Source: Paenibacillus antibioticophila
Lineage (GTDB): Bacteria; Bacillota; Bacilli; Paenibacillales; Paenibacillaceae
DNA length: 64,000 nucleotides
Direction of reading: 5' to 3'
Assembly (NCBI RefSeq): GCF_000455265.1
Contig: NZ_HG005139.1
Location: 2,911,554 to 2,975,553 of the forward strand
Numbering within the stretch: position 1 is the first letter of the stretch; every line of letters starts with the position of its first letter. The translations under genes were made by a program, and so were the position numbers. The notes beneath the pieces are model-generated. The model was not told the origin of the DNA, searched no databases, and was given only the letters and a program-made list of their open reading frames with translations. This document shows positions 174 through 2,406 of this stretch, piece after piece.

Positions 174-605
174 CTATATCCTCTCTTTTCCGTAGGTCAA
201 GTCGCTAATAAGATACACTTCAATATCGGTACACTGGAAAATATCCGGATAGAAAATCGCCATATTATATCCGTCCAACTTAACCGTGCTGTTGTATTCA
301 ATCCCAGCATACTCCGGCTTACCTTCATACCTAATACTTTGGATAAAGTCGGCAATATATTGCGTTGGGATATAATCCAGTATACTATCATATCTTCTCA
401 AGGGTCGACCAATTTCTAAGTTAATTCGCTTCAAATGTTCTTTATTGATTGCATGTTCCAGCGGGGGCAGTTGCTCAATAAACGGGCTGATATGATCGAT
501 AGCTTTCAAATCGATAACGGCGATATCCTCTGCTAATTCAAAGTGTCCTATTGTAATATAGTCAAACACCCCAGCCAGAATTTCTACACTAACGTCATCT
601 ACCTG
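174..605 (-). pseudogene. RES-domain protein, C-terminal remnant
   Basis: The frame reads about 144 codons after an in-frame TGA at 606-608. It resembles the C-terminal half of RES-family NAD+-degrading toxins: a DYIPTQYIADFI segment, then YAGIEYNST, then GYNMAIFYPDIFQC near the end. Full RES proteins with their N-terminal partner domain are much longer, and the N-terminal part with the NAD-binding arginine is missing. The first possible start is a GTG at 569 without a convincing ribosome binding site. It lies between an off-window CRISPR leader and the abiF terminator, consistent with decay in a defence island. It is probably not functional. Confidence 0.6.
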
Positions 606-657: not shown

Positions 658-1539
658 TTAACTCCGTTTAATTAGTATGGCTTCCCAATCTTCAGGGAAT
701 CCGATTCGTTCTAACTCTATGGCATCATTATATTCGGAAAGTAGCGTTTCCAACCGAGTCACAAAATCACTCCATTTTTTTCGTTCGGGAATCAGTTGCT
801 TGAGAACATAAAGGTGAGCAAATATTCGGTTTTGTTGAATGCCCAACTGTTTGGCTTGATGATCCAGTCTTGGCTTGCTTGTAAGCGGTCGGTTATACAG
901 TCTGCCATAGTGAGCGCATATGTTGCGAACATAAGAAAGGCACTTAAGCCAACTTTCAAGATAGATTGCCGGTGCTTGATAATTGCTTCTTGCAATATAG
1001 TTCTTATCTTCGTTTTTCATATTGGAGAACAGCTTCGAAAGTGTTCCAAACGAGAGCACTTCAATTGCTACCCAAACAGGGATGTTTCCTTCATATTTAT
1101 CGAAATGGTGCTTGATGAATATTTCTTGAGATCTTCTGATTTCTTTATCCAATTCAACAAGAAAAGCTTCATGATATTTCTCGTTTTCAAAATGTGCTGA
1201 TTCCAAATGCCCCAACGCGCCGTATGTATGAGCAATACGATAAGAAATATGAGTGCGAAAAGCAATTTCTACTTGCTCGGTCATGTCCATAATCAGGTAG
1301 CGAAAGCGATGGTCAAATTCATATAGTGCATGGATTTGCGTAAATGTTACTCCCGTGTGAAACCGATTATTGTTTTTTAGGCTCAATCCATATGCGCTCA
1401 GACGATAATAATTAATTCGCTGCAATGTTCGAAAAGCAACATCTTCATCATCAATCACAAGGCCGCGCTTTTTTAAAGTTTGAATTTGTTCTTCAAAAGT
1501 AGCAGGGGATTTCAGCAGAGGTGATGGTTGCTGACCCAT
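658..1539 (-). CDS. abiF: Abi_2/AbiF-family HEPN abortive-infection protein
   Basis: A 293-residue protein of the Abi_2 (AbiD/AbiF) family, whose members are HEPN ribonuclease-like proteins of phage defence. Family landmarks are an N-terminal INYYRLSAYGLSL segment, a central AFRTHISYRIAHTYGALGHL block, and the HEPN signature RNICAHYGRLYNR, in which R205 and H210 form the Rx4H catalytic pair. The start is the ATG at 1539 because GGAGG stands eight bases before it; the longer open frame to 1641 runs through the promoter and a structured leader RNA and cannot be its true start. A strong promoter and hairpin leader precede it and a clean terminator follows, so it is monocistronic. It sits between two CRISPR leaders. 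The RNA antitoxin role of the leader is inference; the family call is firm. Confidence 0.9.
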   Translation of the reverse strand: MGQQPSPLLKSPATFEEQIQTLKKRGLVIDDEDVAFRTLQRINYYRLSAYGLSLKNNNRFHTGVTFTQIHALYEFDHRFRYLIMDMTEQVEIAFRTHISYRIAHTYGALGHLESAHFENEKYHEAFLVELDKEIRRSQEIFIKHHFDKYEGNIPVWVAIEVLSFGTLSKLFSNMKNEDKNYIARSNYQAPAIYLESWLKCLSYVRNICAHYGRLYNRPLTSKPRLDHQAKQLGIQQNRIFAHLYVLKQLIPERKKWSDFVTRLETLLSEYNDAIELERIGFPEDWEAILIKRS

Positions 1540-1549
1540 AGAATTCCTC

Positions 1550-1606
1550 CGAATAATAAAAGGCCCACCTTGGTACGCATTGTTAAGAGGCGTGGTGGGA
1601 TCTGTT
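1550..1606 (-). ncRNA. Structured abiF leader RNA / candidate small RNA
   Basis: Downstream of the promoter at 1613-1641 the transcript forms a compact hairpin. CCCACC (1594-1599) pairs with GGTGGG (1564-1569), and an inner ACGC (1590-1593) pairs with GCGT (1575-1578). The loop is 11 bases and the 3' side carries a five-base bulge, ACCAA. The hairpin is followed directly by CCTTTTATTATT, so a short terminated RNA of about 50 nt, with partial read-through into abiF, is likely. A conserved RNA upstream of abiF genes (the abiF RNA motif) is known; membership here is judged from position and fold only. Confidence 0.65.
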
Positions 1607-1612
1607 AATTTA

Positions 1613-1641
1613 ATCTTACAGGAGCTATGTTGCGATGTCAA
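1613..1641 (-). promoter_or_regulatory. Sigma-A promoter of abiF and its leader RNA
   Basis: The minus strand has a consensus -35 box TTGACA (1636-1641), a 17-base spacer and TAAGAT as -10 box (1613-1618). Transcription should begin near 1606, giving a leader of about 65 bases before the abiF ATG. Confidence 0.85.
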
Positions 1642-1695
1642 ACCATTTATGAAAAATTTTCCAACAGGACTTCATTGCCTTTATCTTTTAGTATC

Positions 1696-2166
1696 TCAGC
1701 TTTTGATGATATGACGATATTTGTCGAACATTTCATCCAGCTTAGCGAACTGCTGCTTAATCAGAACTAACGCACTCCGTTGCTACGTTCTGGAGCGCTG
1801 CATGCTCCCCAACACACACGGAGGAGCGGGCATGCTGAAACATTGAAATATCATTGGCATCATTTCCAAAAGCGGTATAGCTCCCAGCTACTATGCCTAG
1901 CTTCTGCAAACCAGACCATTTGTCGAGTCCGGTTGGGCTAATATCTAAAATCTTTCATTACCATGTGTTGACACAACCAGCGGCCATTGGGCAAGCTCGG
2001 CGGATAGCTGCTCAAAGCTTTTGCTTTGCAATACTACTATTTTCACAATTAAGGATAGTTCATCTATCGTCAAATTTCTGGCCGAGCCAGCAGGATCCAA
2101 ATTTCTGCGGATTGGATGTTCATCGCTTCCCGTATAGCAATAATCCCAAGCACTGTCAATCAGCAT
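1696..2166 (-). pseudogene. Cof-type HAD hydrolase relic
   Basis: Minus-strand fragments in shifted frames join into the C-terminal half of a Cof/YkrA-type HAD phosphatase. The first frame (from 2166) ends at STHGNERF. A one-base frame change then gives KILDISPTGLDKWSGLQKLGI and AFGNDANDISMFQHA, the motif IV region with the metal-binding GNDAND. A further frame change precedes the last stretch, KLDEMFDKYRHIIKS, with stop at 1696-1698. At least two frameshifts and loss of the N-terminal half, including the nucleophile DxD, make it a pseudogene. Its truncated end lies ten bases from the first CRISPR repeat. Confidence 0.75.
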
Positions 2167-2175
2167 CTGGGCATC

Positions 2176-2406
2176 ATTTCAATCCACGCACCTGCGTAAG
2201 GTGCGACGTTATGCCTCCGATTAACGCCCGCAGTTTATACGATTTCAATCCACGCACCTACCTAAGGTGCGACCACGAGCTTTGTCACCCGGCGCATTTG
2301 ATCGCTGAATTTCAATCCACGCACCTACATAAGGTGCGACCATACAAATATAACTGCATATCTGGCTCCTGGTTATTTCAATCCACGCACCTACGTAAGG
2401 TGCGAC
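2176..2406 (-). CRISPR. Type I-C-like CRISPR mini-array, four repeats
   Basis: Four 32-bp repeats lie at 2176-2207, 2242-2273, 2309-2340 and 2375-2406, with spacers of 34, 35 and 34 bp. In transcript orientation (minus strand) the repeat starts GTCGCACCT and ends GGTGCGTGGATTGAAAT, the form typical of subtype I-C, with a GCACCT/AGGTGC hairpin. The repeats differ from one another only in the loop (tacgta, tatgta, taggta, tacgca). The leader lies to the right. No cas gene is in the window, so function depends on genes elsewhere. Confidence 0.92.

Follow-up and report, generated by a model that had tools for sequence, protein, structure and literature searches.

RNAs of the abiF family occur on their own, with covarying stems and no toxin gene, in phages of several groups, which is well supported as a fact of sequence. 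It is this solitary occurrence that is new, one phage copy, that of cyanophage S-CREM1, being previously in print. The locus in the window (the whole 64,000-nucleotide stretch of DNA that was analysed) is itself an ordinary new member of a published system, one more of a kind already described, and the solitary RNAs matter more. Papers given by PMC number are cited for the parts of their text that were available.

The abiF gene and its leader RNA in the window

The features of the locus are as follows.

658..1539, minus strand: abiF coding sequence, Abi_2 family, 293 amino acids, ATG start (Pfam, PADLOC and PDB sequence matches; translation)
910..927, minus strand: codons of the HEPN motif RNICAH, R205 and H210 (translation, residues counted from the ATG at 1539)
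1546..1550, minus strand: ribosome binding site GGAGG (read from the sequence)
1552..1606, minus strand: predicted abiF RNA of about 55 nt (fold, alignment and pair counts; 5' end placed by promoter spacing), with 5' AACAG, outer stem CCCACC/GGTGGG, bulged A, inner stem CGC/GCG, loop CTCTTAACAAT, 3' loop TACCAA and a U-rich tract at 1552-1561
1563..1599, minus strand: match to Rfam RF03085, abiF RNA (45.5 bits, gathering score 37, E 3.7e-05)
1613..1641, minus strand: sigma-A type promoter TTGACA-17-TAAGAT (promoter scan; register in linked loci)
2176..2406, minus strand as judged from the position of a leader-like stretch: CRISPR array with four pattern-matching repeats, apparently incidental

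The encoded protein matches the Abi_2 family in Pfam with an E value of 2.1e-54 (185.1 bits, cut-off 25.6), is assigned to AbiD by PADLOC (1.3e-108), and has a solved sequence relative in the PDB, PbAbiF (8vz6; 1.6e-36, residues 13-287). The first-pass annotation described an intact HEPN motif, RNICAHYGR with R205 and H210, and this is borne out, RNICAH starting at residue 205 when counted from the ATG at 1539; it is the one HEPN motif in the 293 residues. The gene that was placed at 658-1641 also stands, but not its extent, that range being a TTG-started frame that crosses the RNA and the promoter, with the coding sequence confined to 658-1539. RNxxAH is present in the window protein and in all 11 aligned bacterial relatives, an alignment that excludes L087 (wrong frame) and L016 (a 67-residue stub); six viral rows with the motif were not counted because they had been selected by that very motif.

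The structured leader proposed by the same annotation was recovered by an Rfam search, in which RF03085, at 1599-1563 on the minus strand and with 45.5 bits over the cut-off of 37, is the only match above a gathering score in the 64-kb window; the same family search matched none of 14 control genomes. A 45-nt abiF RNA folds, as was claimed, into a two-part hairpin (-12.4 kcal/mol, z -2.07), and the full 111-nt leader folds no better than its shuffles (z -0.15); the evidence for a conserved RNA structure is covariation, not fold energy. In the abiF-linked RNAs (11, of which 9 are distinct) all nine pairs are formed in every sequence, with eight cells changed on both sides compared to 1.5 in shuffles, and when the partners are slid at most 48.1% of cells are paired. 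Compensatory stem changes, which were to be looked for among homologues, are accordingly present: nine pairs hold in nine distinct sequences with eight double-changed cells, and structure-keeping changes of this kind occur both in the linked RNAs and in the viral copies described below.

The consensus promoter, TTGACA-17-TAAGAT at 1641-1613, is unremarkable by itself, a scan of the window returning 4 promoter-like sites against 4.4 expected. Its register is fixed, the -10 box ending 6-7 nt before AACAG or AATAG in 13 of 13 abiF-linked loci tested (L007 and L035 being left out), as against 1.2% of shuffled upstream stretches, and from this register the RNA probably starts at 1606. The U-rich tract reported ahead of the ribosome binding site is found at 1561-1552, with GGAGG at 1550-1546; since it is interrupted (TTTTATTATT), attenuation at this locus may be weak. 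A terminator scan limited to loops of 3-8 nt, and thus blind to this hairpin, lists nothing at the abiF RNA.

Since the window has the sequence features of the published C. difficile arrangement, apart from a second RNA motif and a separate terminator, the locus is very probably a type III-like toxin-antitoxin and abortive-infection module, the same device as its C. difficile relative AbiF/RCd22. A single promoter (1641-1613) would make the structured RNA of about 55 nt (1606-1552), with the hairpin and U-rich tract halting part of the transcripts ahead of abiF and read-through yielding AbiF. Free RNA would bind AbiF dimers and block the HEPN RNase site, and a drop in RNA supply, for example when an infecting phage halts host transcription or destroys its products, would leave free AbiF to cut RNA and stop growth. 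The gene, its motif, the RNA family, stem covariation and promoter position are observed at the window locus itself; toxicity, neutralisation in cis and trans, and attenuation are taken from the published relatives (AbiF/RCd22 and PbAbiF), and that the window copy acts as these do, and on such a trigger, is presumed by analogy. The available text of PMC12373285 reports that C. difficile AbiF is toxic, that toxicity is lost on changing R202 and H207, that the RNA binds AbiF directly, thereby neutralising it in cis and trans, and co-purifies with the protein, and that it stops transcription before the gene, a terminator lying ahead of abiF. The RNA-antitoxin reading of the first-pass annotation is thus strengthened by the Rfam match, stem covariation, the fixed-register promoter and these published relatives. 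That the RNA might guide AbiF is not supported, PMC12948488 stating, in the part available, that AbiF lacks RNA-targeting specificity.

With AbiF/RCd22 and PbAbiF/AbiFr (type III-like toxin-antitoxin, Abi_2, RF03085) the window shares the Abi_2 HEPN protein with its RNxxAH, the abiF RNA upstream on the same strand, the SigA-type promoter and the hairpin before the gene. Against the single abiF motif of the window RNA, RCd22 carries two and, besides, a separate terminator; the C. difficile pair belongs to a prophage lysis module, whereas the window locus is chromosomal and lies between CRISPR arrays.

A second AbiF, 50% identical to that of the window, is encoded in the same genome (contig C3, 293550-294395; L024), and its RNA has the same shape with a different loop, scoring 22.8 bits, under the Rfam cut-off. 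It is possible that the two AbiF/RNA combinations are insulated pairs. Adjoining abiF, a 131-residue frame at 174-569 (minus strand) matches part of the RES domain (25.7 bits, cut-off 23.2) and is likely to be a truncated gene; between abiF and the CRISPR array, at 1690-2166 (minus strand), lie what by eye are remnants of a HAD-type hydrolase gene.

Solitary abiF RNAs in viral and bacterial records

A core pattern (CGCCTCTTMAYAATGCG) that leaves out the outer stem and the unpaired 3' loop matched at least 120 IMG/VR stretches, and four when reversed. Among the matches listed, 99 are distinct, including five that are abiF-linked, and the outer stem has at least five of six Watson-Crick pairs in 84 of these (12.9 with shuffled arms) and all six in 60 (2.7 with arms shuffled among matches), the 84 stemmed matches presenting 56 different 5' arms. 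When the G-C in the middle of the inner stem was replaced by A-U, both partners being altered, the pattern still gave 77 matches, with the stem in 42 of 54 distinct. A one-sided, mismatched change of that pair gave 11 matches, with the stem in 1 of 7 distinct, and a change of one loop base gave 13, with the stem in 0 of 8 distinct, both controls exceeding the four of the reversed pattern. Of the solitary copies with a six-base 3' loop among the matches listed, all 80 have A or C at the second loop position, 66 have C at the fourth and 57 have A at the fifth. With a single register imposed on all 146 distinct solitary matches listed, each of the six pairs is Watson-Crick in 93 to 105 of them. 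The viral alignment for covariation took 100 of 197 loci (both patterns, among the matches listed), and its count describes a selected, model-fitted set because the loci were chosen mostly for having the stem. The curated Rfam abiF cut-off was passed by 17 of 20 chosen viral loci.

The toxin gene is seldom present. Among the matches listed, AbiF lies behind 7 of 153 distinct viral copies (5/99 and 2/54), and at least 600 nt downstream were covered for 134 of the remaining 146. Whole records were searched for Abi_2 at 50 of the at least 120 loci: all five that had been taken with adjacent abiF contain it, compared to 0 of the 45 without, many IMG/VR records being fragments. Abi_2 was likewise found in none of 14 named phages searched whole, namely Bacillus phages Grass, SPG24 and P59; Staphylococcus phages Stau2, SA11 and qdsa001; Enterococcus phages phiSHEF4 and dArtagnan; Lactobacillus phages SA-C12 and P1; Streptococcus phage Javan129; Sulfurimonas phage SNW-1; and crAss-like phages cr7_1 and cr124_1.

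A model built from abiF-linked RNAs only matched 14 of 15 phage records at E<=1e-3 (2.9e-12 to 8.2e-4), the 15 being 13 of the named phages (without SA11) together with S-CREM1 and sk1; of the 14 matching records, 13 had been selected for their BLAST similarity, and S-CREM1 came from published work. The matches in dArtagnan and in the two Silviavirus records, Stau2 and qdsa001, cover the inner part only and were counted as weaker, and S-CREM1 reaches only 8.2e-4 despite its published Rfam score of 51.6. The Rfam model is stricter, with 3 of the 14 named phages matching at E<=1, all under the cut-off. The one record that failed to match was sk1. A reference title in PMC12737573 speaks of an sk1 DNA region by which another phage is shielded from AbiF; across the full sk1 record no match appears, either with Rfam at E<=10 or with the linked-only model at E<=1, so this protection is not explained by an abiF RNA, a candidate that was rejected.

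Solitary viral copies vary in their surroundings. Among the matches listed, a run of four Ts follows the stem in 53 of 119 and is absent from 66, and 18 of 119 sit within a stop-free frame of at least 100 codons; individual viral RNAs give mixed fold-energy scores (z -0.82, -2.85, -0.73 and -2.63). Two different abiF RNA copies stand in tandem behind a tRNA-Asn at L222 and L258, and a second, weaker match is present at L093, L260 and L267. A tRNA lies within 300 nt of 31 of 119 stemmed solitary copies listed, in 30 cases on the same strand, against 7.5 expected from random positions within the same loci; for listed matches with poorer stems the figures are 11 of 27 against 5.1, and for mismatched or loop-changed matches and for linked copies 0 of 15 and 0 of 7. 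In P59, P1, SA-C12 and S-CREM1 a copy is within a few bases of a tRNA, that of S-CREM1 being located between tRNA-Asn and tRNA-Gly, and the Grass copy has tRNAs about 0.5 kb away on either side. A recognisable in-register promoter is present in 19 of 118 solitary viral copies among the matches listed, against 3.4 expected; since so few have one, many viral copies may come from longer transcripts.

Other RNA families were encountered in the same phages. A sub-threshold, TEG147-like Rfam match lies directly behind the abiF core in three Silviavirus phages (L195, L196 and L206, at 2539-2598), for which the available part of the S. aureus paper PMC5826253 offers no explanation. Skipping-rope RNAs (RF02924) over threshold, at 3600-3670 of L194 and 2417-2486 of L203, share a tRNA-rich region with the solitary abiF RNA in phages SPG24 and P59.

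Solitary copies are also found in bacteria. RF03085 matches occur in 23 of 394 genomes of the source organism's family, and at 11 of these loci AbiF follows directly downstream, at two there are fragments only (L039 and L044) and at 10 there is none, 1.5 kb downstream being covered for this last class apart from one locus that ends at a contig edge. Ten of the 12 genomes with fragment or none loci are without any Abi_2 match genome-wide; the exceptions are G001, with a divergent Abi_2 copy elsewhere, and G201, with fragments elsewhere. The gene directly in front of the solitary RNA encodes release factor 2 (prfB) at L172 and lacto-N-biose phosphorylase at L175, and L176 and L177, judged by ORF sizes alone, appear to share the gene order of L175; at L181 the RNA is at the 3' end of a DEAD-box helicase gene, and at L173 an RNA methyltransferase lies about 760 nt upstream. 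At L174 (7128-7164; G003) it is antisense between genes for an Eco57I-type methylase and PglZ, a BREX-like pair.

Proposed role of the solitary RNAs

Because the RNA stands alone in phages of unrelated groups, it is suggested that phages carry it to disarm AbiF. The likeliest reading, somewhat more probable than not, is that the solitary phage RNA is a decoy antitoxin that silences host AbiF: phages of many unrelated groups would carry the RNA, single or as two different tandem copies, with no toxin gene; in some, it would be made with, and then trimmed out of, tRNA clusters; and in infected cells it would bind and silence AbiF RNases, alongside spare tRNAs that counter HEPN enzymes which cut tRNA. 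Chromosomal copies that stand alone behind housekeeping genes would correspondingly confer immunity against AbiF borne on plasmids or prophages. The joint reading, in which the phage RNA is a general anti-abortive-infection weapon paired with spare tRNAs and the chromosomal copies are immunity, is held with modest confidence. Cas13a, another HEPN RNase, cuts tRNA anticodons (PMC12373285, available text), and a decoy RNA would go well with spare tRNAs if AbiF cut tRNA.

Phages with only the RNA part of a defence have precedents, to judge from the available text of the papers concerned: the pseudo-ToxI of phiTE (PMC10286901), the Racr solitary CRISPR repeats (PMC10651486) and rAcrVIA1 (PMC12948488) are, like the solitary abiF RNAs, present without the protein. 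The abiF RNAs differ from these mimics in concerning AbiF, in occurring in several unrelated phage groups and in lying near tRNAs in about a quarter of cases. In S-CREM1 the phage copy was already annotated, at 51.6 bits, in PMC9964418, where the accessible portion calls it an sRNA that is probably functional in infection, mentions three phages in Rfam for abiF RNA, and discusses antitoxin mimicry for protein antitoxins with no link drawn between abiF RNA and neutralisation of AbiF. The literature searched, in the parts available and with Zilberzwige-Tal et al. (2025) outside its coverage, holds no proposal of phage abiF RNAs as anti-AbiF agents.

At the window, the RNA could be a cis-acting transcription attenuator (a terminator) only, as opposed to a protein-binding antitoxin. 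The hairpin and U-rich tract directly before the ribosome binding site suit such a role, as does the position of some solitary bacterial copies directly behind ordinary genes, e.g. prfB (L172) and lacto-N-biose phosphorylase (L175). However, terminators need no fixed loop, whereas a one-base loop change cuts the viral matches from at least 120 to 13, none of the eight distinct loop-changed matches keeping the stem; the unpaired 3' loop is conserved (A or C at position 2 in 80 of 80 among the matches listed); the run of four Ts is absent behind 66 of 119 stems among the matches listed and present behind 53; and a published study of the C. difficile relative reports direct binding (PMC12373285, in part). 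An attenuator alone is therefore very unlikely. It is even harder to credit that AbiF works together with the CRISPR arrays, guarding them in the manner of CreTA or making use of CRISPR-derived RNA, an extremely improbable reading. Two arrays with leader-like stretches do flank the gene, as the first-pass annotation pointed out, one with four repeats at 2176-2406 and the other, of 14 repeats, immediately outside the left edge of the window, the leader-like stretches at 1-139 and about 2437-2575 aligning with each other; the arrays are putatively of subtype I-C, as that annotation labelled them. Against this, arrays were found in the flanks (up to 6 kb) of 0 of 14 related abiF loci, searched for exact 18-mers at array spacing and several ending at contig edges, and the arrays consequently look incidental. 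Moreover, the sole cas1 match of the 9-contig assembly is on contig C4, flanked by arrays with 9 and 26 repeats, the window being on C1, and abiF has its own promoter and RNA; the significance attached earlier to the CRISPR neighbourhood is not supported, abiF and the arrays sharing a neighbourhood with no further link seen. A CreTA-like guard was rejected, as the conserved place beside CRISPR-cas was lacking (0 of 14 loci with an array, cas1 elsewhere). Type VI membership, which needs a large effector, two HEPN motifs and a crRNA guide, was likewise rejected: the link between AbiF-like HEPN proteins and the ancestry of Cas13 (type VI), brought up in the first-pass annotation, has been published (Zilberzwige-Tal et al., Cell 2025, via the available text of PMC12373285 and PMC12737573), but the window protein has only 293 residues with one HEPN motif, and the nearby repeats form separate arrays with leader-like stretches of their own. 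The cas1 match (C4, 277373-278242, minus strand) reads through one TAG within the matched frame, and this adaptation gene may be broken.

For the solitary copies, the readings to be set against a decoy antitoxin are loss of function and a different ligand. Two of the 23 bacterial loci (L039 and L044) keep only AbiF-like fragments behind the RNA, as would be expected of functionless relics of modules that lost their toxin gene. Relics, however, would lose stem and loop, whereas the stems stay complementary over 56 different 5' arms among the matches listed, with the core and 3' loop fixed, and no stretch of Abi_2 is left in the 45 viral records searched whole (many of them fragments) or in any of the 14 named phages; a relic origin is highly doubtful. 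Binding to another protein, whether an unrelated HEPN or a host RNA-binding protein, with regulation of phage genes and a likeness due to shared ligand chemistry, is rather unlikely. It would suit the varied gene context (tRNA clusters, a terminase gap, structural genes) and the recognisable promoter in only 19 of 118 copies among the matches listed, but the curated abiF threshold is exceeded by 17 of the 20 chosen viral loci, AbiF is the sole ligand named in the available parts of the literature searched, and P59 and a plasmid of its host species have similar RNAs, the plasmid copy with abiF behind.

If the decoy reading is true, AbiF, a reported ancestor of Cas13, would be a barrier strong enough that phages of Bacillus, Enterococcus, Lactobacillus, Synechococcus and Sulfurimonas, as well as crAss-like gut phages, maintain a copy of the corresponding antitoxin. 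What AbiF defends against would become testable with B. subtilis phages, and the naturally varied antitoxin RNAs would be usable to map recognition by AbiF, as the stem may be free to vary while paired and the loop and 3' bulge hardly vary.

Phage RNA and host AbiF agree by group, an agreement that is not a statistical test. AbiF relatives are found on plasmids of Bacteroides, the host group of crAss-like phages, and of Synechococcus and related cyanobacteria, the host group of S-CREM1. In S. aureus, 200 of 1,800 genomes lack abiF/abi_2 according to the available text of PMC12373285, so that about 89% have it. A plasmid of Bacillus amyloliquefaciens was rejected as an example of host AbiF, as it has a copy without annotated abiF instead; this solitary abiF-like RNA (L310, 2501-2557) lies among YopX-type genes of the 216-kb plasmid. 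Plasmid pBO1 of Cytobacillus oceanisediminis has an abiF RNA with an Abi family gene behind it, and P59, a phage of the same species, has a solitary RNA with flanks resembling those of the pBO1 copy; the outer stem differs between the two yet is paired, and one inner pair is broken in P59.
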